64,000 nt of DNA from Loktanella sp. PT4BL (GTDB lineage: Bacteria; Pseudomonadota; Alphaproteobacteria; Rhodobacterales; Rhodobacteraceae): positions 1 through 64,000 of the forward strand of contig NZ_QJJL01000003.1 in the NCBI RefSeq assembly GCF_003201935.1. The letters are read 5' to 3'. The translations under genes were made by a program, and so were the position numbers. The notes below the pieces were generated by a model. The model was not told the origin of the DNA and ran no database searches. It was given only the letters and a program-made list of their open reading frames with translations. The number at the start of each line of letters is the position of its first letter. The stretch's first letter is position 1. Positions 15,536-27,492 of the stretch are shown in pieces.

Positions 15536-16435
15536 ATGCACTACGGATATATCGGCCAAGGCAATCTTGGGGCAAATTGCGCGGCTTGTTTGCTGCGCGG
15601 GGGCATGGATGTGACCGTCACGGACATCAATCGCGCCGCGGCAGAACCCGCCATTGCCTTGGGTGCCAAATGGGCCGGCAGCCCCGCAGAACTTGCAGGC
15701 TCGGTTGATCACGTCATCACCTGCCTGCCATCGCCTGCCGTATCCGAGGCGGTCGCGGCCCAGATGCTACCCGTGATGAAAGAGGGCGCGCATTGGATCG
15801 AAATGTCGACCTTGGGCCGTGACGAAGTGCTGGCCTTTGCGGCGAAAGCGGCAGCACATGATGTGCGGATGATGGAACTGCCTGTTACTGGCGGTGTGCA
15901 TCTGGCCGCGCAGGGCAACATCACCATGCTGGCCGGTGGCGACAAGGATATGTTCGAAACCCATCTGCCTGCGCTCAAGGCGATGGGTAATCAGGTGTTC
16001 CACATGGGCCCGCTCGGGTCGGCGTCGATCATCAAGGTGATCACCAATATGCTGGCCTTTATCCACCTCAAAGCCTGCGGTGAGGCGCTGATGCTGGCCA
16101 AGCGTGGCGGGCTTGATCTGGGGCAGGCGTGGCATGCGATCAAGGCGTCGTCCGGCACGTCGTTCGTGCATGAAACCGAAGGAGCGCTTGTCCTGAACGG
16201 ATCTTATGACGTGGCCTTCAATATTGATCTGGCGCTGAAGGATCTGGGGTTCGCCATGGGCTTTGGCCGCGAATTCGAAGTGCCGCTTGAACTGGCGGCA
16301 GCGACCGAACAAACCTATGTGGCAGCCCGCGCGGCCTATGGCGGAGACGCCCAATCGCCGATGATCGTGAAGCTGCTGGAAGACCTGCTCGATACCGATT
16401 TGCGGGCTGATGGGTTTCCGGCGCGGCTGACCTAG
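15536..16435 (+). CDS. 3-hydroxyisobutyrate dehydrogenase-family oxidoreductase
   Basis: A 299-residue NAD(P)-dependent beta-hydroxyacid dehydrogenase. The Rossmann start YGYIGQGNLGANCAACLLRGG is followed by the family signature region (LPVTGGVHLAAQGNITMLAGG, matching the D-x-P-V-S-G-G site with L in place of D). The catalytic Lys is in GSASIIKVITNMLAF and the helical C-terminal domain carries ALKDLGFAMGFG. It likely oxidises a short hydroxyacid produced from the methyltransferase pathway or from an amino-acid-derived substrate. It is co-transcribed with the mttB-like gene and its last 4 bp overlap the convergent hydrolase gene. Confidence 0.88.
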   Translation: MHYGYIGQGNLGANCAACLLRGGMDVTVTDINRAAAEPAIALGAKWAGSPAELAGSVDHVITCLPSPAVSEAVAAQMLPVMKEGAHWIEMSTLGRDEVLAFAAKAAAHDVRMMELPVTGGVHLAAQGNITMLAGGDKDMFETHLPALKAMGNQVFHMGPLGSASIIKVITNMLAFIHLKACGEALMLAKRGGLDLGQAWHAIKASSGTSFVHETEGALVLNGSYDVAFNIDLALKDLGFAMGFGREFEVPLELAAATEQTYVAARAAYGGDAQSPMIVKLLEDLLDTDLRADGFPARLT

Positions 16436-17349
16436 GCGCTGGCCTCGGCAAAGAAAGGCAGCCACGCCTCAAGCACTTTGTCGGGGTGTTGTTCGGCCAG
16501 ATAATGACCGCCGGGCAGGGCCCATCCGCGCACGTTGGCGGCCCGCTCTTGCCAAAGGGCGAGACAGTCAAAATGTGCCTCGATTGCGCCGTCCTTACCC
16601 CATAGCGCCAACAGCGGCATTTGCAGCTTTGTCGGGTCGGCATCATCATGCGCGATGTCGATGGTTGCCGCGGCACGGTAATCCTCGCAGGCTCCGTGGA
16701 TCGCCTCGGGTTTGGAGAAACAGGTCAGGTATTCATCCAGCGCCTGCTGTACGAAAGGCGACAGTCCCGCAGAACCCGCACCGCATTTCTTGAGCCAGAA
16801 AAAGGCAGGGTCAGCACCGATCAGATTTTCCGGAAACGGATGTGGCAGGGTCAGCCAGTACCAATGCCAATAGGTATGCGCAAAGGCGCTGCTTGCGTCG
16901 CGGTACATCTCGCGCGTGGGCGCGATGTCCAGCACAGAGAGCGCGACCACCCGTTCGGGATGGTCCGCTGCCAGACGATGAGCCACACGGCCTCCGCGAT
17001 CATGCGCGCCGATCAGAAAGCGATCATGACCCAAATGGTCCATCAGCGCCAAGACATCGCCCGCCATCGCGCGTTTGGCGTAAGGGCTGTGCTTCGCGTC
17101 TGTTGTCGGTTTTACCGACCGGCCATAGCCCCGCAGGTCAGGGCATATGACCTGATAGGTCTCCGCCAGAACAGGCGCTATCGCGTGCCACATGGCAGAG
17201 GTCTGGGGATAGCCATGCAGCAGCACCAGCGGGGGGCCGTTGCCAGCGATGCGGTAAAAGATATCGCCTTCGGGGGTGGCCAGATTATGCTCTTCAAACC
17301 CGTCGAAGAAATGCGGCGCGGCGGGGGCTGCTGCGGCTGCAGGGTGCAT
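16432..17349 (-). CDS. Haloacetate/fluoroacetate dehalogenase-type hydrolase
   Basis: A 305-residue alpha/beta hydrolase. The oxyanion motif LLHGYP is at 43-48. The nucleophile elbow GAHDRGGRVAHRLA has Asp117 rather than Ser, with Arg118 and Arg121 matching the carboxylate-binding arginines of fluoroacetate dehalogenase. HTYWHWYWL provides the halide-binding His/Trp pair, and ALPGGHYLAE the catalytic His. This pattern fits FAcD/DehH enzymes that cleave C-Cl or C-F bonds of short haloacids. Epoxide hydrolases also have Asp here but usually lack this Arg/His-Trp set. The start codon overlaps the stop of the upstream gene (TAATG at 17347-17351), so it is the last cistron of the kinase-GTPase operon, which is unexpected. 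Confidence 0.85.
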   Translation of the reverse strand: MHPAAAAAPAAPHFFDGFEEHNLATPEGDIFYRIAGNGPPLVLLHGYPQTSAMWHAIAPVLAETYQVICPDLRGYGRSVKPTTDAKHSPYAKRAMAGDVLALMDHLGHDRFLIGAHDRGGRVAHRLAADHPERVVALSVLDIAPTREMYRDASSAFAHTYWHWYWLTLPHPFPENLIGADPAFFWLKKCGAGSAGLSPFVQQALDEYLTCFSKPEAIHGACEDYRAAATIDIAHDDADPTKLQMPLLALWGKDGAIEAHFDCLALWQERAANVRGWALPGGHYLAEQHPDKVLEAWLPFFAEASA

Positions 17350-18131
17350 TACGCAAATATCCGTTGCCAGGATGCCTGCATCGCCCCAAAGCGTTCCGCT
17401 TCATAAGCGATCAATGCGACATGACCATCATAAAGAGCCAGCGCTGCGGAATTGCCATCATCAAAGGCACCATCCAGACAAATCAACTGGGCGGCTTCCT
17501 CACCACGCAGCGTTTTCTTGTGCGCTTCGCGGAATGCTTCGACCTGCGTGCTCCAGATGGCCTGTAGCGCTGCGAAATCCCCCTCTTTTGCAACGATCTC
17601 GCCGTCGCAGATGTGGAGTACGGATGAAAACGCGGGGGCGTTCACCGTCAGGAACTGTTCCATGGGTGGCTTGGGAGTGCTGTCCATTTCGGCCAGTGCG
17701 ACGTCCCAAAGTTCGGCCAAACCAAGGGCGGAAACGCCGCGTTCGCCGCTGTTTCCAAAGGGTTCGGAAGGCAGGCTGCGGACTGTCATGTTTTCCGCTT
17801 TGCCGCAGAGTTCTTCCAGAAGGTCATGCGCAGCCTGAACAACATCGGGATCTTCGCGTGACAAGACCTGACCGATGACATCCGCATCGGATTTTGGCGA
17901 AACACTCAGGATACCGCGCATACGACGACCTGCCGCTATAATCCGGATGGATTTGCCGCCACAGCGAAAAGCAAGGCAGCGCTCAAGCACGGTATCATCG
18001 ACCTCGCGCAGGATCGCGGCCACCGGGGACGGCGATCCGCCCTCCGAAATCATGCGCGCGCCTGTTTCATCCATGACTTCCCGCGCAGACAAAACAGCGA
18101 GTTTTTGTGCCAAAGCGTTCAATTCGCTCAT
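17349..18131 (-). CDS. Unknown protein of kinase-GTPase cluster
   Basis: A 260-residue soluble protein I do not recognise. It opens with a helical region (LNALAQKLAVLSAREVMDETGARMI). The middle reads as alternating strands (RCLAFRCGGKSIRIIAAGRRMRGILSVSP) and the C-terminal half is acidic with FLTVNAPAFSSVLHICDGEIVAKEGDF. There is no signal peptide, membrane segment or nucleotide-binding motif. It follows the small protein at 18163-18525 by 31 bp and is coupled to the hydrolase gene by TAATG. The position suggests an adaptor or effector in the phospho-signalling system; this is inference only. Confidence 0.6.
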   Translation of the reverse strand: MSELNALAQKLAVLSAREVMDETGARMISEGGSPSPVAAILREVDDTVLERCLAFRCGGKSIRIIAAGRRMRGILSVSPKSDADVIGQVLSREDPDVVQAAHDLLEELCGKAENMTVRSLPSEPFGNSGERGVSALGLAELWDVALAEMDSTPKPPMEQFLTVNAPAFSSVLHICDGEIVAKEGDFAALQAIWSTQVEAFREAHKKTLRGEEAAQLICLDGAFDDGNSAALALYDGHVALIAYEAERFGAMQASWQRIFA

Positions 18132-18162
18132 AAGCCAGTTTCCAGCTCTCGGTTATGTGTTT

Positions 18163-18525
18163 TCATTCACCGCTACTGATGCGGTCAAGGCATGCACAAG
18201 CATCAGCAACAAACCTATCTGCATCCATCTTTGGGCCGCAGATACAACAAAGAACATCATTCGGTTCATTTTCTGCACGCAAAAAGACGCGCAACTGCGA
18301 CGTACTCGCAACAGAGGCCATCCCGCTTGGCTTGTCCGCCAATGCCGGCTTGCCATTTGCTCCCAACAATAATGCAGCCTCTTCACAAAGAGCATCCAGC
18401 GCCTCACGCCGCAAATTTGAACTTGAGTCTGTTACGAGGATCATTTTCGTCGAGAGATCTGCGAAGGCAACCGCAGTGCAGCCTTCAAATTTCTCACGCA
18501 AAGCATCCAACTCATCAACAACCAT
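18163..18525 (-). CDS. Small protein, possibly Roadblock/LC7-like
   Basis: A 120-residue protein. The pattern of helix (VVDELDALREKFEGC), two strands (TAVAFADLSTKMILVTDSSS), long helix (RREALDALCEEAALLLG), then more strands (LRVFLRAENEPNDVLCCICGP) and a final helix agrees with a Roadblock/LC7 or profilin-like fold. Roadblock proteins regulate small GTPases in bacteria (MglB acts on MglA), so one beside three GTPases would make sense. The fold assignment is by eye and weak. The gene is 83 bp downstream of the GTPase gene at 18609. Confidence 0.5.
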   Translation of the reverse strand: MVVDELDALREKFEGCTAVAFADLSTKMILVTDSSSNLRREALDALCEEAALLLGANGKPALADKPSGMASVASTSQLRVFLRAENEPNDVLCCICGPKMDADRFVADACACLDRISSGE

Positions 18526-18608
18526 CTGCAGCTCGCTTCCTAACTACGCATGGCTATGAGTACGGCAAATGTGACGATTGTGGAAGGGCTGCAAAAAACC
18601 GTGCTGCA

Positions 18609-19496
18609 TCAGGATGAACGCAGGATCCGGTCGACAGAGGATAAAGGGTCTTCCGCTGTGGTCTCTGCGGGTGCACGTTCCCGTGATGAACGGACACTGT
18701 CCGGTGCGCGCTGCACCCGGCGCGGCATCACCGGCGCAACGACGGGCGCAGGTATGTCACTCAGGCTGTCCATGTTATAGAGCGGCAACTCGGTGCGTGC
18801 AGTAAGCGCTGTCAGCCGCTCGATCACATCAATCAGATGGGCGGTAAAGGGGCCTGCGCCACTGGCATCCCACCGGTCATAGTCTTCACCTGCTTGAATG
18901 GCGTGCAAGAGCGAGACAGGGAAAATCGCACCAAACTGTCCTTGGGTTTCACGGGTCACGCGTTTGACCACGCGACTACGGTCTTTTTCGGTGTTCAGCT
19001 TGTCAAACCGCGTGATCAGCAGGATCGAGTTTTCGCGGACAGCTTGCGGCATGTCTTCCCAAACGGCTGCCTCGGATTGGCGCCAAGCTTGGGTCGCATG
19101 GGTGCACCAGATCACGGCGTCCACTTCGGGCAGCATCCGCTCCCAGACAGAGGATGACATGTTGGGGTCCGAAATGCCCGGAAAGTCGATCAGGTCACAG
19201 ACTTCAAGAATGTCGGCTTCCAGAAACAGGCGGATGCTGCGGGTTTGCTCGACAGGGATGTTTTCAAGCTCTGCGAGGGTGACAGGTTCTTTCGATCCAT
19301 CAACATCAATGCGGTAGGGCGCGCGCGTGCCATAAGAAATCCAGACAGGGGACAAGCGTGTCGCGGTTACTTTCTCAGGTAACGGACGCTGGCCCATCAG
19401 CAGGTTCGAGAGCGTACTTTTGCCGGCGCTGAACTCACCCATCAAAGCGATGCGTGGTTTGCGGCGACCGCCGGAATTTGTTTCACCAACACTCAT
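18609..19496 (-). CDS. Dynamin-like GTPase, short form
   Basis: A 295-residue GTPase. The P-loop GEFSAGKST is at residues 20-28, G3 is DFPG at 104-107, and G4 is TRFDK at about 162. MGEFSAGKSTLSNLLMG is typical of bacterial dynamin-like proteins. It is shorter than a full dynamin, ending in a proline/arginine-rich tail after about residue 230 and lacking the long helical stalk. It may work as a partner of the 695-residue protein, as many bacterial dynamins occur in pairs. Its ATG overlaps the upstream gene by ATGA (19493-19496), so the two are translated together. Confidence 0.85.
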   Translation of the reverse strand: MSVGETNSGGRRKPRIALMGEFSAGKSTLSNLLMGQRPLPEKVTATRLSPVWISYGTRAPYRIDVDGSKEPVTLAELENIPVEQTRSIRLFLEADILEVCDLIDFPGISDPNMSSSVWERMLPEVDAVIWCTHATQAWRQSEAAVWEDMPQAVRENSILLITRFDKLNTEKDRSRVVKRVTRETQGQFGAIFPVSLLHAIQAGEDYDRWDASGAGPFTAHLIDVIERLTALTARTELPLYNMDSLSDIPAPVVAPVMPRRVQRAPDSVRSSRERAPAETTAEDPLSSVDRILRSS

Positions 19497-21580
19497 TTAT
19501 CAACTCCCACTGCGAGCAGAGGTTTTGTTTCGCTCAGCTCTTCGAAGATGTAGTCGAAAAGCTCATCGCGTTCCTGCTGGGCAGTAATACCGAAAATGTC
19601 TTCCAAATCGTCAATTGCGATCTCGGATTTGCTACTGATGTCTTCAAGAATGGCGCGCTGTTCGGCGTGGAACTCTCGTAGTTCAGACTGCGCGCGCGCA
19701 CGGATATCATCGGCTTGCCGAACTTTCAGCTCATCAACGATCGGGGCTGTTTCCGCTTCGATCAGGTCGTAGAACCCGCTTGCAAAAGCGCGGTATCCCT
19801 TGCGGCGTTTCCACCACCCCTTCCACCATGATGTTTGCAAGTCCAATGCAATGGTCTGGCCAAGAGACACGGGGGCAGGGATCTCGGGCGGGGCAGGCGG
19901 TGTAATCGTGAAGTTCTCGACATCGACACCGAATGCAGACCGATACGTATCTGCAAGATCACCGGCAGCGGCGGCATAGACGTCTTGGCAACTGGCGGTC
20001 ACATTGCGCCGCATCACCTGATAGCTGGTGCGCAGCAACATGCGCAGGCCATCAGGGCTATATTGCCAGATCTCTTCCTCACCCTTGGTTTCCAGATGCT
20101 GCAGCAAAGATTCCAGCGCGCGATCCAGAAAGCGTTTGTGCGATTGGTCAACGCGTGATCCGAACTGCGAAAACGCAATGTCCAGCCGCTCATCGAGGGC
20201 CTTCATGCTTGCGGCTTCCAACGTATCAAGGTGGGCCGAAAGCCTTTCGCTCGACATGACTTCGACGGTGTCACCATCCAGACGCATCGATACGACTGCG
20301 TTGGACGCGCGCACACCGCCCACGAGGTTCAGCGCGCGCTTGCGTGATGCGGACAGGATTTCAGCACCGGGGCCTTCCGAAATACGTTCGGACAGCGCGC
20401 GATAAAGTTCGGGGATACCGGAAAGATGCCAGACAAGCTCTTTGGTTTCCATGCTGGCGGTTTCCGCACTCAGCGCGGCTTCGGCCCAGTTGAACATGGC
20501 CTCGGCGCTGTCGGCAACAATATCATCAAGGTCTTCGGACAAGGCCATATTGGCCCAATAGGCGCTACCGAAAATAACCTCGGGGTTCTCTGGTCCGTTA
20601 TTGTCGGCCAGCGTCTGCAAAATGCTGTCGCGTATTTCCGGAACCTGTGCGCCGGGATCAGACAGTTCGTCGATCCGGTTTACAAAGATGACGACCTCGC
20701 GCGCCTTCACGTTCGAGATCAGACGGATCAGCCCCATATCCATCGAACTAAGCGCCTGATGGGCGGACAGGACAACAACGCAGATACGGCTATCGCGCAG
20801 GGCATTGATGGTAATCTGTTCCCGCATCATGAATGTATCATTCACGCCCGGCGTATCGCGCAGACAGATCGACATCGGGATCGAGTCCGCGTTCAGATAC
20901 AGGTCAGCGGATTTTGTAATATCGGCAAAGCGGCCCTGCTGGTCTTCTTCTTCGAGATCCTCGAAATCGTCGCCCATGCAGACATAGCGCTGCACCAATT
21001 CGTCGCTCAACTCGGCGTAGCTGTGTTTTTGTCCCAACAAAAGTTCGAACTTGCGACCAAGGCGCTGCCTTGTCTTTTCACGCATTTCGGCAATTTGTTG
21101 ACGCACTTTCTCAAGCTCTTCGTCAGCACCGGCACGTTCAGACAATTCGCCGATTCGGCCGCCGTTCTCGACAAGGTGATCCCATTCACCTTGGCTGAAG
21201 AACTGAAAGGTTGCCGTTGGCGCATCATCCGGCAAGGGCGTGTTGAGGTGAAGCGAAGTCACAACAGACGTCCATGGGTTCACATCCGCAGGCAACAGAT
21301 CGGGCCGGCCAACCATGGCATTCACCAAAGACGTCTTACCCGACTTGATTTGGCCGATCATGGTAATGCTTGGTTCAAAAGCGCGTAACTGTTTGATAAG
21401 TTTAGAAGCTTTCTTTTCAGCGTCCTGGCCGCCAAGCTTTACGACATCCGCAAGCGTCGCTTCGAGGTCGACAACCTCATCGTGGAAGCGGTCCATCTTC
21501 TCCAGCCCAAGGCGCATGAAGGGGAGCTGCTCCGGCGGGATTGCTAGACCATCCCCATTTGCGACCTCTTCCATCTTCAT
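19493..21580 (-). CDS. Dynamin-like GTPase, long form
   Basis: A 695-residue protein with a helical N-terminus, then a GTPase domain. The P-loop GQIKSGKTS is at 76-84, followed by G2 around VNPWTSVVT, G3 DTPGVND and G4 NRIDE. The remainder is mostly helical (stalk-like) and contains a short basic/Trp patch (TSWWKGWWKRRKGYRAF) near residue 585, a candidate membrane-binding paddle. The C-terminal 100 residues are a charged helical hairpin. This arrangement matches bacterial dynamin-like proteins, which remodel or protect membranes. The membrane-binding role is inferred. It is in tandem with the short GTPase gene and 160 bp downstream of the third GTPase-like gene. Confidence 0.85.
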   Translation of the reverse strand: MKMEEVANGDGLAIPPEQLPFMRLGLEKMDRFHDEVVDLEATLADVVKLGGQDAEKKASKLIKQLRAFEPSITMIGQIKSGKTSLVNAMVGRPDLLPADVNPWTSVVTSLHLNTPLPDDAPTATFQFFSQGEWDHLVENGGRIGELSERAGADEELEKVRQQIAEMREKTRQRLGRKFELLLGQKHSYAELSDELVQRYVCMGDDFEDLEEEDQQGRFADITKSADLYLNADSIPMSICLRDTPGVNDTFMMREQITINALRDSRICVVVLSAHQALSSMDMGLIRLISNVKAREVVIFVNRIDELSDPGAQVPEIRDSILQTLADNNGPENPEVIFGSAYWANMALSEDLDDIVADSAEAMFNWAEAALSAETASMETKELVWHLSGIPELYRALSERISEGPGAEILSASRKRALNLVGGVRASNAVVSMRLDGDTVEVMSSERLSAHLDTLEAASMKALDERLDIAFSQFGSRVDQSHKRFLDRALESLLQHLETKGEEEIWQYSPDGLRMLLRTSYQVMRRNVTASCQDVYAAAAGDLADTYRSAFGVDVENFTITPPAPPEIPAPVSLGQTIALDLQTSWWKGWWKRRKGYRAFASGFYDLIEAETAPIVDELKVRQADDIRARAQSELREFHAEQRAILEDISSKSEIAIDDLEDIFGITAQQERDELFDYIFEELSETKPLLAVGVDK

Positions 21581-21740
21581 CCTTGTCCGTCCTTAACAAA
21601 TTGATCGTACCACAGCTTTGCGCGGTCCCGCTCGTCGCTAAATAGCAAGAAAAGCACCGTCTTTATTGCCATAATGGAAACAGATCCGCACGGCAAAAGT
21701 ATGGCGCTTAGCTTAAAAATTTCACAAGCGACAACGTGGG

Positions 21741-23228
21741 TTACGCAGCCAAGTCAGCCTGCAGTTCTCGTTTAATCTGTAGCATGAGGCTGACGGCTTC
21801 AAGGGCTGCGCTGCCTTGTTTTTCCATCTGCATCAATTGCACCATGTCTGCGGCGTCAAAAGCGGTATCGCGGGTGCGTTGCAATGAAGTATCTGCGGCA
21901 TCACCGTTTTCGTTCAGATAATCACACAGCCACTGTATATGATCCACAGCCATTGCCATGACCTCGGCAGGGCCATCTTCACCTTGTTTCTCAAGCACGG
22001 ATGCAAGCTCTGCACCGTGCTCTTCAAGGTAGGCGATAACATGCTCATAGGCGTCGCGTGTGGCAGCCTGCAGCGGTTCCGCGGCAACCGCGGCTGGTTC
22101 CTCCGCTTCAGCCTTTGCCTGCGGTTCTGGTGCAGGCGTCTTCGCAGGTTTCGCCGCTTCCTCGAACGCGAGGTCCCGGGACACATTCTTGCGGGCGGCG
22201 ATCTCGCGCAGGCGCGAAATGGCGTCGCGTGTCGCGGGCTTTGTTTCAGCAGGGCTAGCTGCCGGTTTCGGCGCCTCTGCTTGTGCATTCTCGGGAGCAG
22301 CAACAGGCGCGGCAGGACCTTTGGCGACCACCGGTTCTGGTGTTGGCGCAGGCTCTGGCGGTGTGCTTACCTCTGGCGCAACAGGGGCATCCTTTAAGGG
22401 GGCCAACAGATCGGCATACTGATGCAGCAGAACATCAGCCTGATCCACCGCAGACTGACGGCCGCGCTCGACCTGTTTGAGAACCGCCGAGATCAGCGCG
22501 GATCCGCCGCTCTCGCGCATGACGTCCTTGTCGACAGTGCCATCTGCAAGCCGCGCTGAAAGTGCCTGGTTCGTGGCAATCGCCAGAACCGCATTGAATT
22601 CATCCCCTGCAGCCGCAGAGATTGCGCCGACTGCGGCCTCATAAAGCCCTTGCGCCTTTAGAAAATCGGCATGGGTGACCATGCAGAACGCGTGATCCTT
22701 GATCAGGTCAGGCATGGTGGCCCAAATGCGTTGCTCAGGTTCGGTGAAACCGCGTGTGCACCAAAGTGCGACGTCCGTGCGCTTGGAGGCCCACTGCGAT
22801 GCACGGTGCACGGCGTTCGTGTCATTAGGGGCGACGACTTCGAGAACCGAAATCTTGTTCAGGGCCGGCAGAGGCATCTGCATTTCCACAAAGACCGGGG
22901 ACAGGCCTGCGATCATATCGGAATCGACGGCATTGAACTCTTCTTTGGACCCGTCAGCCAGGGTGCAGACCGATTTTTCACTTTCGCCATAAACCAGTTG
23001 CATCGTTGGCAAATGCACCCCCTCAGGGATGACATCTGCGCCCACAAGCAAATTCAGCAATCTCGATTTTCCGGATTCAGGCATGCCGAGGATGGCCAGA
23101 CGTACCGGCTTTTGCAGGCGCTCAAGCAGCAGTTCCGCTTTTTCATGGTCAGAATCAGGAAGCAGGCCACTTAGCACGGCCTGCTTCAATTCTGTTTGGA
23201 CCCGGTTTCCCAGTGATTGATTCGACAT
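21741..23228 (-). CDS. GTPase-like protein with degenerate switch and Pro/Ala linker
   Basis: A 495-residue protein. The N-terminal domain has a P-loop (GMPESGKSRLLNLL, about residues 48-61) and G2-like TMQLVYG. The G3 position reads VVAPND, without D-x-x-G, and G4 is THAD instead of N/TKxD, so hydrolysis may be lost. Residues about 280-385 are a Pro/Ala/Glu-rich linker. A helical C-terminal domain follows (about 390-495). A similar Ala/Pro linker occurs in the kinase and FHA proteins. The protein may be a regulatory or scaffold pseudo-GTPase for the two dynamin-like proteins. Its start codon overlaps the phosphatase stop (TAATG at 23226-23230). Confidence 0.75.
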   Translation of the reverse strand: MSNQSLGNRVQTELKQAVLSGLLPDSDHEKAELLLERLQKPVRLAILGMPESGKSRLLNLLVGADVIPEGVHLPTMQLVYGESEKSVCTLADGSKEEFNAVDSDMIAGLSPVFVEMQMPLPALNKISVLEVVAPNDTNAVHRASQWASKRTDVALWCTRGFTEPEQRIWATMPDLIKDHAFCMVTHADFLKAQGLYEAAVGAISAAAGDEFNAVLAIATNQALSARLADGTVDKDVMRESGGSALISAVLKQVERGRQSAVDQADVLLHQYADLLAPLKDAPVAPEVSTPPEPAPTPEPVVAKGPAAPVAAPENAQAEAPKPAASPAETKPATRDAISRLREIAARKNVSRDLAFEEAAKPAKTPAPEPQAKAEAEEPAAVAAEPLQAATRDAYEHVIAYLEEHGAELASVLEKQGEDGPAEVMAMAVDHIQWLCDYLNENGDAADTSLQRTRDTAFDAADMVQLMQMEKQGSAALEAVSLMLQIKRELQADLAA

Positions 23229-24283
23229 TACTTGCCTCCGGCGGCTATCTTAGCCGGCGGCTCAGCCGCATCAACCTCCTGTGTCAAATCGGTTTCATCA
23301 TTCAGCTCGACCTTTTTGAGGGGTCTGACTTCCTTGATCACTGTTGGCGCGCTATTTGCAGCGACTTCCTTCGGCTTTTTCGTCTTTGCCGCAACCTTTT
23401 CAATGTCGTCCAATTCAACAACACGTGTGACAGTCGAGGTCTGATGATCGACATGGCCAACAGGCTTGGCGCGGATTGCGCGGATGACAGGCTTGTTGTG
23501 GTTCAGTTTGATCACCGAGAACGTGCAGTTGTCCTGATCGGGGTCAGCCAGCGCCTCGATTGCCTCCAGCAGATAGCCCGCAATCTCGGCCGCCTTCTTG
23601 CGGCGATAGCGGTGCAGGATTTTCTGGATCTTTGCATCTTCCAGATACTGCAGACCGTCGCTTGAGACGACAACGATATCACCGACCTGCAATTCGAAAG
23701 GCGTTTTCGGGCAATCCGATTTCGTCACGCGATCACCCAATATCACCGACGTCAGACAGTTCCTGTCAGGATGGTTCTTGCCGGCTTCTTCATCCAGCAA
23801 ACCTTGCTGGACCATAAAGTCGATCTGCGGCGCCATCGAATGATCTTCATTCAGCTGCTTCATCGTGCCATTGCGATAATGGTACAACGGGCTGTCGCCA
23901 ATCGACATCCAGTACATCCGGTTCTCGACCAGAACGACAGAAACAAGTGTCGCCCCCATGCCGCGTGTTTCGGGATGTGCCTGCACATGTTCACGGACAT
24001 AGCCGTTGGCGTTCGCCGCAGCTTCGGTCAGGAAGCGTGGAATTTCACCTTCGAAATCGGCAAAATTCGCGCTTTCAAACTTGAGCTCGCTAAAGACTTC
24101 GGTGACGACAATCTTGCTGGCAACATCACCGGCCGCATGGCCGCCCATGCCGTCGGCAAGCACAACCACACCACTATCCGCCCCGAAAGGGAAATCAGTG
24201 ACGATTGCGTCTTCTTGATAGTCACGCCCGCCCTGACAGATCGCAGATGCGACGTCAAAACGTGGTTCAGGCGATCGCCACAT
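23228..24283 (-). CDS. PP2C-type Ser/Thr phosphatase
   Basis: About 351 residues from the ATG at 24283 (MWRSPEPRFDVASA); the open frame extends to 24343, but that would cover more of the FHA gene. The PPM/PP2C metal-binding motifs are present: RDYQEDA near the N-terminus, VVLADGMGGHAAGDVAS, VVSSDGLQYL, and DPDQDNCTFSVIK for the final Asp. The catalytic domain ends at about residue 240, followed by a charged Lys/Val-rich tail that may be disordered. It would reverse phosphorylation by the kinase at 25201, as in PknB/PstP or PpkA/PppA pairs. It overlaps the FHA gene by 17 bp. Confidence 0.9.
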   Translation of the reverse strand: MWRSPEPRFDVASAICQGGRDYQEDAIVTDFPFGADSGVVVLADGMGGHAAGDVASKIVVTEVFSELKFESANFADFEGEIPRFLTEAAANANGYVREHVQAHPETRGMGATLVSVVLVENRMYWMSIGDSPLYHYRNGTMKQLNEDHSMAPQIDFMVQQGLLDEEAGKNHPDRNCLTSVILGDRVTKSDCPKTPFELQVGDIVVVSSDGLQYLEDAKIQKILHRYRRKKAAEIAGYLLEAIEALADPDQDNCTFSVIKLNHNKPVIRAIRAKPVGHVDHQTSTVTRVVELDDIEKVAAKTKKPKEVAANSAPTVIKEVRPLKKVELNDETDLTQEVDAAEPPAKIAAGGK

Positions 24284-25142
24284 CTTCGTCCTCCTCGGTC
24301 GCACCATCCGACCAGTTGAAAGATTTGTCGCAAAGCGCAACAAACCGCAGCACAGTCTCGCCGATACGGATGACGTCGCCGGTTTTCAGCGTTTCGTTGC
24401 TGATCAAAGGCTTGTCGTTCAGGCGTACAATATTTGACTTGCCGCCATGCCCAAGCAAAAATTCCTTGGTGTCGGGGTCATAAACAATTGCGGCGTGGTT
24501 CGAACGCGAGATCGAGTTGTCACCAAAATCGAGCTGGATCGCCTGGTCCTCGCCACGGCCGATCTGTGACATACCCGCCATGAGAGAGAAGCTTTCGCCA
24601 CGTCCCGGTCCTTCGGCAACAACAATCCAGCCAACAGGGAAGCGCACGCTCTTGGTGGGTGCCGCCTTTTGGGCGTCGTTGAACAGGTCAACAACATCAC
24701 CATCGGATTTGTCAAAGCCAATCAGGCGTGTCTTTGTGCGACGCGACCGCGCGGGTGACCGTGCTGCCGCTGCAGAAGCGACTGCCTGCTCTGCAACAGG
24801 TGCCGCAACGGGACGCACCGGTGCAATCGGTGCTGTCGGTTCCGGAAGGGCGGTTGATGTCCCGTCATCCTCTAGATCCCAGATATTCACTGCCGCAGGT
24901 GCTGCAGGTGCAGCGGGTGCTGTTGGCGCTGCCGGTGCCTGCTCTGCGCTGACAACCCGCACATCGGTTGCGGCGTTCGTCTGAAGGGGAGTAGCGACTG
25001 CAGGTTTGCTCAAAGGCGCAGCCTCGTCCACTATTGATCCGATCGTATCACGATAGGATTGCTCCAGAGATTCCACGGAACTCGCGCGCCGCGTATTTGT
25101 ATCGCTGCGTTTCTTTCCAAGTAGATCACGAATGAATTTCAT
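24267..25142 (-). CDS. FHA-domain protein
   Basis: About 291 residues from the ATG at 25142 (MKFIRDLLGKK), chosen because GGAGGG lies about 7 bp upstream; the longer frame to 25304 overlaps the kinase gene. The N-terminal 60 residues are basic and Ser/Thr-rich, a possible kinase target. Then comes an Ala/Pro linker. The FHA domain covers about 185-275, with the phosphothreonine-binding residues visible: GR in SQIGRGEDQ, S-x-x-H in SRSNHA, and N in VRLNDKPL. It should bind a Thr-phosphorylated partner, probably the kinase or one of the GTPase proteins. Confidence 0.88.
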   Translation of the reverse strand: MKFIRDLLGKKRSDTNTRRASSVESLEQSYRDTIGSIVDEAAPLSKPAVATPLQTNAATDVRVVSAEQAPAAPTAPAAPAAPAAVNIWDLEDDGTSTALPEPTAPIAPVRPVAAPVAEQAVASAAAARSPARSRRTKTRLIGFDKSDGDVVDLFNDAQKAAPTKSVRFPVGWIVVAEGPGRGESFSLMAGMSQIGRGEDQAIQLDFGDNSISRSNHAAIVYDPDTKEFLLGHGGKSNIVRLNDKPLISNETLKTGDVIRIGETVLRFVALCDKSFNWSDGATEEDEDVAIA

Positions 25143-25200
25143 CTTGCTACCCTCCAATTTACTGATGTCGGGCGGTCCTGCTGGACCGCTGTGACATATT

Positions 25201-27492
25201 TTACTCTGCCGCGCCGGATACCGTGTGCGAAGCCACCCAAAGGCCGCCATCGCGCTGCACTGCGAAACTGAATTGTTCCGTTCCGTCCGCGAGCTCACGC
25301 TCAAAAATGTTCATAATCGAGTCGCGTTGATCAATCGTTTCACCTGTCGAAATATAAGAGGTGATCACATCGCCTACTTCCAGACCGCCCTGTTCGACTT
25401 GATCAAGCGCCACGACTGTTGTGGTCCAGCCAGTGCCAGAGAACGCTGTCTGGAACGCCGTCCCATCGACCAATGTGACATTCTGTACGACCGGAACAAC
25501 CCAGTTATACTGGACGAAATCGCCGGTTGATGGCTTGATTGTGTTGAAAGCGACCGGAATTGTCGGTGCGACTTCGCCGTCACCGATTTGCTGACGCAGC
25601 GCTTCTGGAATATCAGAAATTGCATCGATACCAATGCCATTCACAGCCACGATCACAAGGCCAGGCTCAACCCAGACGGGCGAGATCGGTCCGGCTTCGG
25701 CTACAATATTCGATTGCTCGCCGGCAGCGGTGAAAGGCAGTTGCACAGTCCAGGACCCGGTGACAGGGGCGGCTGCAGGTGGCAGTTCATTTCCGGGTGT
25801 TACTGCCGAGATCTCGACTGCTGGTCCTGCACCGACGCTTTCGACATTTTCAGGTGTGGTTGGCAGCGCAACCGGCGCAATTTCGGATGCTTCTACCGGA
25901 CGGTTTGCAGTGGTCAAAACGTCACCGGAAACAGGCTGATCAGCCGCAGGCTGCGGTGTCGCAACTGGCTCCGGCAGCGGCTCAGGCTCAGGCAAAGCCG
26001 CGATTTCGACGCTCTCGGGCCGTGCAGCCGGACGCACCGTTGGTGTCGGCGCTACGGCCGCGACAGGTGGTTCGATGACAGCAGGCGGGACAATGGCGGT
26101 CTCTTCTGGCGCTGGCTCTTGTGTGATTGCAGGGGTCTGTTCTGCGGCAACTGACGCGGCCAGTTCCTCGGCAACAGAAGGTGCAGGGGCCTCTTCGCGT
26201 GGCGCAAGAAAGGCTGGCACGTCGGCCACGACAGGATCTGCGGCTGCTTCTGGGGTAGCCGCTGGTGCTGGTGCTGGTGCCGGTGTGAAGACTGGCTCGG
26301 CAGGTGCTTCAGCAACAACCGTTGCTTCAACTGCAGCAGGCGCTGCGGCTGCGACAGGTTCTTGCGCTGCAACCGGGGCATCCTCGCCGCCGGTCATTGT
26401 CATAACGCCGACACCAACCAGCAGGGCGACTGCAGCCGCAGAGCCCAGCAAAACTGGCATGTTGGATTTCTTCGCTGGTGCAGCGGCAACGGGGGCGCTT
26501 TTTGCAGACTTTTGTGGCTCGGCTGCAACTGCCGCACCAACTTTAAGGGGCGTTACATTGCTTTGCCCGCCTTCCATGATCTCCATCCACTCCTTAGCGG
26601 ACTGGACGCGGTCCTTTGGAAGGACCGCAAGCGCTTTGTCGATCGCCGCAAGGAAAGACGGTTCATACTCGCTAAAACGACCTGCAAGCGGCTCATAGGG
26701 GTCTGTTTCGCCGGACGCGATAGCGGCCAGGCGGGCCTGTGAGTTTGGTGGTACATCGCCGTTGATAAGGTGGTAGAACGACGCACCCAAGGCATAGAGG
26801 TCGCTGCTCGGGCTTTGTTCGGAACCTGCGATGTAGAATTCTTGCGGAGAGTAGCCATCTTTCACGACACGCAAGGCCGACAGCACGCGGCTTTGCTTTG
26901 TTGCTTCCTCGCGGGCGGCACCAAAGTCGATCAGGACAGGATGGAAATCCTTATTAATCAGGATGTTGTCGGGCGAGATATCGCGGTGAAGGATACCTTG
27001 GTCATGGATGAACCCAACCGCGCCCAACACTTCTTTCAGGATCGACTTGATCTGTGTCGCGTTCAGGCCGTGGTTTGGGTCTTCGATGGTATCAAGAAGA
27101 TCGCGACCCGTCACAAAGTCCAAAGCCATGTAGGCGGTCTCGTTGTCTTCGAAAACCTGATGCACGCCGACGATGTTCGGATGGTTCAGCTTCGCGAGGC
27201 TGCGGGCCTCCTGAACGAAGAGGCGGACAATTGATTTTAACTCGTTCTGGTGAGCGCGCGAACGCGCCTGCACCACGTAGCGGCTGCGACGGCAGAAGGC
27301 CCCGGGGAAGCACTCCTTGATAACGACTTTACGATCGAGGCTATCCTTGGCCAAATACGTAATGCCGAAACCGCCAGCATTCAGAAAGCTCTCGATTGTA
27401 TACTGGCCGTGCATCAGCTTTGTGCCCGGCTTCAGCTCATCAACGAAGCTATCCTTTTCAGTCGTATCTTCTTTCACTTGCGCCTTAGCCAT
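25201..27492 (-). CDS. Membrane Ser/Thr protein kinase with periplasmic repeat modules
   Basis: A 763-residue kinase of Hanks type. The Gly loop GGFGITY, VIK with Lys59, HRDISPDN at about 169-176 and DFG in LIDFGAARE are intact; the catalytic loop has Ser where most Ser/Thr kinases have Lys, as in some other bacterial kinases. A single membrane segment (VLLGSAAAVALLVGVGVMTM) starts at about residue 347. Outside are about 200 residues rich in Ala/Pro/Val/Glu, then two similar modules (WTVQLPFTAAGE... VWVEPGLVIVAVNG and YNWVVPVVQNV... GGLEVGDVITSYIS) resembling PDZ-like domains. It is the first gene of the cluster and probably senses an envelope signal. Confidence 0.9.
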   Translation of the reverse strand: MAKAQVKEDTTEKDSFVDELKPGTKLMHGQYTIESFLNAGGFGITYLAKDSLDRKVVIKECFPGAFCRRSRYVVQARSRAHQNELKSIVRLFVQEARSLAKLNHPNIVGVHQVFEDNETAYMALDFVTGRDLLDTIEDPNHGLNATQIKSILKEVLGAVGFIHDQGILHRDISPDNILINKDFHPVLIDFGAAREEATKQSRVLSALRVVKDGYSPQEFYIAGSEQSPSSDLYALGASFYHLINGDVPPNSQARLAAIASGETDPYEPLAGRFSEYEPSFLAAIDKALAVLPKDRVQSAKEWMEIMEGGQSNVTPLKVGAAVAAEPQKSAKSAPVAAAPAKKSNMPVLLGSAAAVALLVGVGVMTMTGGEDAPVAAQEPVAAAAPAAVEATVVAEAPAEPVFTPAPAPAPAATPEAAADPVVADVPAFLAPREEAPAPSVAEELAASVAAEQTPAITQEPAPEETAIVPPAVIEPPVAAVAPTPTVRPAARPESVEIAALPEPEPLPEPVATPQPAADQPVSGDVLTTANRPVEASEIAPVALPTTPENVESVGAGPAVEISAVTPGNELPPAAAPVTGSWTVQLPFTAAGEQSNIVAEAGPISPVWVEPGLVIVAVNGIGIDAISDIPEALRQQIGDGEVAPTIPVAFNTIKPSTGDFVQYNWVVPVVQNVTLVDGTAFQTAFSGTGWTTTVVALDQVEQGGLEVGDVITSYISTGETIDQRDSIMNIFERELADGTEQFSFAVQRDGGLWVASHTVSGAAE

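Follow-up and report, generated by a model that had tools for sequence, protein, structure and literature searches.

The gene run at 16432-27492 on the minus strand of the Loktanella sp. PT4BL DNA raises the question of whether a Ser/Thr kinase, an FHA protein, a phosphatase and a bacterial dynamin encoded side by side constitute one system, and what such a system would switch. The run lies in contig NZ_QJJL01000003.1, of which positions 1 to 64,000 were analyzed; this whole stretch of 64,000 nucleotides (nt) is referred to as the window. As judged from homologues and gene order, eight of its genes, from the kinase PK to the small protein SM8, form a conserved, largely co-inherited unit that is apparently restricted to Rhodobacteraceae, and we give about an even chance to the reading that this unit is a phosphothreonine-switched membrane-remodelling module of the family. 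The nine co-directional open reading frames (ORFs) follow one another in the order reported by the first-pass annotation, all of them on the minus strand (lengths in amino acids, aa):

25201..27492, minus strand, PK: Ser/Thr protein kinase, 763 aa (Pfam Pkinase, E 6.5e-33)
24267..25142, minus strand, FHA protein, 291 aa from its probable start (Pfam FHA, E 9.1e-8)
23228..24343, minus strand, PP2C phosphatase, at most 371 aa, start uncertain (TTG) (Pfam PP2C_2, E 4.6e-11)
21741..23228, minus strand, GTP4: degenerate GTPase, 495 aa, with a helical, conserved C-terminal region (sub-threshold MMR_HSR1 and Dynamin_N matches)
19493..21580, minus strand, DYN: bacterial dynamin-like protein, 695 aa (Pfam Dynamin_N, E 5.8e-13)
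18609..19496, minus strand, GTP6: short dynamin-type GTPase, 295 aa, lacking a stalk, with a basic tail (Dynamin_N, E 5e-11)
18163..18525, minus strand, SM7: predicted Roadblock/LC7-fold protein, 120 aa (predicted model and fold matches)
17349..18131, minus strand, SM8: conserved protein, 260 aa, without a Pfam match, relatives 19-29 percent identical
16432..17349, minus strand, alpha/beta hydrolase (Pfam Abhydrolase_1): passenger, outside the conserved unit

The first description of the neighbors as overlapping or nearly touching applies to most of the run, where the gaps calculated from the coordinates do not exceed 83 nt, but not to GTP4 and DYN, which are separated by 160 nt. The FHA gene probably starts at 25142 (291 aa) rather than at 25304. 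The Pfam search of the two small ORFs of the window, SM7 and SM8, gave no match.

The distribution of the unit was surveyed in 198 Rhodobacteraceae genomes, each from a different genus (G numbers), of which 48 carry a DYN homologue (E ≤1e-10), and in two sets of loci (L numbers). The 80-locus set comprises the best 80 of 457 loci from a dynamin search, so that the nearest relatives are over-represented in it; the best match is the locus of Loktanella sp. 5RATIMAR09, with a DYN 98 percent identical, followed by Yoonia. The 40-locus set covers 37 of the 47 other DYN-positive family genomes (leaving out G004, G019, G022, G051, G074, G098, G147, G159, G168, and G195), and since contigs are partly shared (e.g., L037 and L111), counts from the two sets are not independent. 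All eight genes are present in 47/80 loci, and the distinct kinase-FHA-phosphatase-dynamin cluster proposed at the outset thereby proves to recur across the family. Seven genes, SM8 excepted, are found in 53 loci of the 80-locus set and in 26/40 of the other, while the one-strand order PK, FHA, PP2C, GTP4, DYN, GTP6, SM7, SM8 is kept in 43/80 loci (30, plus 12 with the hydrolase and one with the kinase match in two pieces); on these counts the gene order exceeds chance. SM8 was detected in 67/80 loci with many queries versus 7/40 loci with one query, the low count being due to the single query. The other 27 loci of the 80 are short of one of the seven core genes, many of them being cut by contig ends.

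Co-occurrence across the genomes points in the same direction. SM7, found in 43/198 genomes, is present in 43 of the 48 DYN-positive versus 0/150 DYN-negative genomes (Fisher p 2.5e-38), and the FHA protein, found in 41/198, in 38/48 versus 3/150 (Fisher p 7e-28), both p values being uncorrected for relatedness. In the case of G003, the dynamin pairs are situated at ~0.3 Mb and SM7/SM8 together with a kinase-FHA-PP2C-GTP4 block at ~3.38-3.39 Mb of one contig, and all of the genes are kept. The expectation that the genes stay together in relatives is thus borne out for a large share of the loci, but not in G003, nor in several loci containing dynamin-GTPase pairs alone. Furthermore, the defined ratios of nonsynonymous to synonymous substitution (dN/dS) are 0.02-0.26 for the core genes and 0.06-0.13 for FHA (versus ten related loci), several others being undefined because synonymous sites are saturated; these ratios indicate purifying selection on the core genes. 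Outside Rhodobacteraceae, no DYN alignment match at E ≤1e-15 was obtained in 289 class and 299 phylum genomes, since the two class genomes and four phylum genomes that matched all belong to Rhodobacteraceae, although Dynamin_N proteins in general are widespread (12/14 control genomes).

The three dynamin-like GTPases of the first-pass annotation resolve into one full-length dynamin, one short G-domain protein and one degenerate GTPase. DYN scores 49.7 bits against Dynamin_N (cut-off 27), and the G1, G3, and G4 motif patterns all occur in 40/40 of its relatives. Its predicted model (pLDDT, predicted local distance difference test, 84) has BDLP, IniA, and SynDLP as best fold matches, which supports a bacterial dynamin fold with high confidence, and displays a long helical stalk with an aromatic tip distal to the predicted G domain. 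GTP6 lies directly downstream of 48/48 DYN copies in the 40-locus set, and both proteins give partial matches to the LeoA model of PADLOC (DYN 34.5 bits, GTP6 21.7 bits). Tandem DYN-GTP6 arrangements also occur, including in L054-type genomes: L073 contains three pairs, whereas L042, L068, L070, L071, L074, and L075 contain two each, and most of these loci lack the kinase-FHA-PP2C set in the stretch examined. The 34 relatives of GTP4 retain the P-loop in 25 and G4 in 18 cases and DxPG in none, a motif pattern that marks GTP4 as a degenerate GTPase; in L136, the GTP4 frame extends to ~834 codons.

SM7 is assigned with high confidence, from its predicted model, to the Roadblock/LC7 fold, previously unrecognized in this protein, as Roadblock proteins head the matches obtained with both Foldseek and VIA. 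The Pfam Roadblock model matches 0/32 SM7 members at E 1, so that Roadblock membership here is a matter of fold only. A comparison of the SM7 sequence with PDB sequences returned a phospholipase A2 as best match (E 0.13), which was taken as chance.

The FHA protein is the sole PF00498 match in the Loktanella sp. PT4BL genome. A low-complexity linker containing a KTRLLGF-type motif precedes its FHA domain, and a degenerate DNA pattern of this motif occurs once in the genome. The threonine of the motif, Thr138 in the 291-aa numbering (codon 24731-24729), is invariant in 19/19 aligned rows and in 101/101 scorable sequences, the loci being partly non-independent. FHA-like cores numbered 107, and after five spurious frames (L039, L067, L080, L130, and L154) and one core cut by a contig end (L050) were dropped, 101 of the 121 sequences could be scored: each of the 93 that fit the motif pattern has Thr, and in eight more this residue was identified by eye (L049, L093, L106-L109, L114, and L116), L049 having a changed motif beyond it. 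An IWD-L/I/M-type motif is also situated in the linker at about residues 84-92, and it lies within 110 residues upstream in 59/107 cores, spurious ones included. A hydrophobic residue at +3 favors an FHA ligand, and in OdhI and GarA the phosphate of the modified threonine then binds the FHA domain of the protein itself. Thr14 of OdhI and Thr21 of GarA, both ahead of the FHA domain, are named as PknG sites in a passage of PMC8546545. Thr138 is a candidate switch site and the putative target of the kinase.

PK consists of a kinase domain that keeps HRD, DFG, and the catalytic Lys (alignment), one transmembrane stretch near residue 347 (hydropathy 2.24), and a long C-terminal part. The genome holds two more Pkinase matches outside the window (G000:C4:44842-45642 and G000:C1:61548-62090). 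A membrane kinase sensing an envelope signal was proposed at first; besides the PK of the window, a transmembrane stretch is present in just 5/31 kinases of relatives in the 40-locus set, so a general envelope sensor is unsupported and such a role would at best be lineage-specific. Several kinases lacking the stretch (L040, L047, L048, and L056) carry, by eye, an I-x-x-L/I-V-x-E-T/S-N-like motif past the kinase domain, a possible docking motif. PP2C scores 150 bits against an Stp1-like model, under its cut-off of 230. LysM/SBP_bac_3-like genes, in places as many as three consecutively, adjoin kinase-FHA in L112, L115, L122-L124, L128, L071, and L072, and FHA-PP2C in L177; in L106, such a gene is on the opposite strand. 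Among six of these genes that were checked, three pass the Pfam LysM cut-off, and SBP_bac_3 matches four, in each case under its cut-off; their products are possible periplasmic sensors.

A phosphothreonine-switched module of this kind would operate as follows. DYN would act on a membrane through its predicted aromatic, basic tip with GTP6 as a partner, in the manner of other bacterial dynamin pairs, while SM7 may control or sense which nucleotide GTP6 (or DYN) carries, or else scaffold both, comparable to MglB with MglA. PK would phosphorylate the FHA protein at Thr138 and PP2C would take the phosphate off; phospho-Thr138 would fill an FHA domain, either that of its own molecule or that of a second one, on the OdhI/GarA pattern, and this occupancy would decide whether the FHA protein holds the GTP4 adaptor and the dynamin complex. 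The net outcome would be switched membrane tethering or remodelling. The trigger would vary by lineage: the kinase of this cluster spans the membrane, most kinases of other lineages have no such stretch, and a few have LysM/SBP-like neighbors. We favor this reading because of the shared order and gene content of the loci, the co-occurrence of SM7 and FHA with DYN, the retention of all genes in G003 even where they are apart, the predicted SM7 and DYN folds, the single FHA domain and single Thr motif in the genome, the purifying selection and the precedent of the pre-FHA phosphosites in OdhI and GarA. A stronger version is held only tentatively, at well short of even: that this would be the first bacterial dynamin machine under dedicated Ser/Thr-kinase control, in which phosphorylation of the one invariant FHA threonine gates the DYN-GTPase pair and the Roadblock protein sets the nucleotide cycle.

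Several observations weigh against a single switched module. In the stretches examined, kinase-FHA-PP2C blocks without a dynamin occur in L167, L168, and L170-L174, some of which include GTP4 (L167 ends shortly after PP2C). Five genomes (G019, G022, G054, G098, and G159) contain DYN and SM7 with the FHA protein undetected, and from these genomes dynamin and Roadblock look like the tighter core. In addition, no kinase match was found in the long stretches L101, L118, L132, L136, L137, L139, L141, L142, and L146; the ORFs upstream of FHA in L136 and L139 were read, and no kinase is among them. The first two of these observations suit an explanation in which DYN-GTP6-SM7-SM8 and PK-FHA-PP2C(-GTP4) are two separable neighboring modules, the second having its main targets elsewhere, and the linkage reflects co-expression only. 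The arrangement of L122-L124 (two of them Leisingera), where the gene set is divided into two convergent blocks, fits the same explanation. However, the strong tendency of FHA and DYN to be present together across the family and the conserved gene order argue against this explanation, as does the single FHA domain detected in the genome of the window, and we consider it unlikely, although it is the most probable of the rivals. As separate observations, the dynamin-free blocks possibly represent a paralogous or ancestral signalling module, and the Rhodobacter/Tabrizicola-type and related clusters L136, L137, L139, L141, L142, and L146 begin at FHA.

The surroundings of the unit bear on a second rival, namely defence against phages or membrane attack, in which a kinase-triggered dynamin would seal or disrupt membranes. 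At least one of twelve flank genes of the window, the hydrolase included, is near 25/80 loci (E ≤1e-30), which, where named, belong to Yoonia, Loktanella, and Roseobacter sp. CCS2, and none of the twelve is found at the remaining 55/80 loci at the same threshold. As the flanks are common to these 25 loci only, the site is stable within the Yoonia group and other sites are used elsewhere. SM8 is immediately followed by the hydrolase gene in 8/80 loci, and in four more this gene lies >4 kb further on; counted at first as a cluster member, it was rejected from the unit and is, from this distribution, a passenger carried by some of the Yoonia group. The patchy distribution over 48/198 genera, the generic hits that PADLOC gives for the kinase (PD-T4-6 and mad6), and the weak LeoA/LeoBC matches of the GTPases would suit defence; however, PD-T4-6 and mad6 match any Ser/Thr kinase, the window flanks are metabolic or transport ORFs by reading, and the Yoonia group keeps the unit at a stable site, which leaves a defence role improbable.

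A threonine phosphorylation set that once served type VI secretion or has been orphaned from it, placed beside GTPase genes by chance, would account for the same kinase/FHA/PP2C trio and for the weak match of the FHA protein to the TagH model (13.7 bits, cut-off 120). VipB, however, is absent from the Loktanella sp. PT4BL genome by search and is not associated with DYN over the 198 genomes (14/48 DYN-positive versus 30/150 DYN-negative, Fisher p 0.23), and in the 14 genomes that contain both, the two genes are on separate contigs or at least ~157 kb apart (G128 and G062). A type VI origin is accordingly very improbable, and the separation of this cluster from a type VI accessory set, as first claimed, stands. 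A helper role in photosynthetic membranes, prompted by the reaction-centre genes of this genome and their presence in 25/48 DYN-positive versus 59/150 DYN-negative genomes, is likewise very improbable, as the difference is not significant (p 0.13) and 23/48 DYN-positive genomes lack reaction-centre genes.

The phosphothreonine-switched reading would carry several consequences. To our knowledge, the on/off switching of bacterial dynamins is largely open, and no description of this cluster was found in the open-license literature searched; the unit looks like an undescribed bacterial control of membrane remodelling. The Roadblock protein, the invariant linker Thr, the degeneracy of GTP4, and the dynamin-free kinase-FHA-PP2C blocks all go beyond the first-pass annotation. 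If the reading is true, Roadblock-type GTPase control, as in MglB and Ragulator, would be joined to a dynamin effector, the Roadblock fold would extend to dynamin operons, and the kinase-FHA-phosphatase set, which has no secretion system, would gain a concrete target. The cluster is a compact case from environmental bacteria: its switch residue and its GTPase regulator are both predicted, and just one FHA protein is detected in the genome.

We know of no kinase-FHA-phosphatase-degenerate GTPase-Roadblock set in BDLP, IniA, Cj-DLP1/2, SynDLP, or LeoABC, whose fold resembles that predicted for DYN. Bacterial dynamins are mostly encoded as operon pairs, according to work on Cj-DLP (PMC6104087), and the GTPases are paired in the operon here too; unlike those pairs, the partner GTP6 lacks a stalk, and a kinase, an FHA protein, a phosphatase, a degenerate GTPase, and a predicted Roadblock protein stand alongside. 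The PpkA-Fha-PppA pathway likewise contains a kinase, an FHA protein, and a PP2C phosphatase in one cluster, and Pseudomonas aeruginosa Fha1 is described in part of PMC5995506 as controlled via Thr-362 phosphorylation, but secretion genes are not seen here and a genome-level association is lacking. Similar to the actinobacterial PknG-OdhI/GarA system, a threonine is located ahead of the FHA domain, whereas the targets here would be GTPases rather than metabolic enzymes and the phosphorylation is inferred; the solute-binding protein proposed as an upstream control of mycobacterial PknG (in a passage of PMC6069109) resembles the LysM/SBP-like genes beside some of the kinases. In the case of MglA-MglB of Myxococcus, where MglB is the GTPase-activating protein of MglA (as stated in a passage of PMC9481161), a small Roadblock-fold protein also adjoins a GTPase; the GTPases of this cluster are dynamin-type and not MglA-like by Pfam, and a GTPase-activating role of SM7 would be hypothetical.

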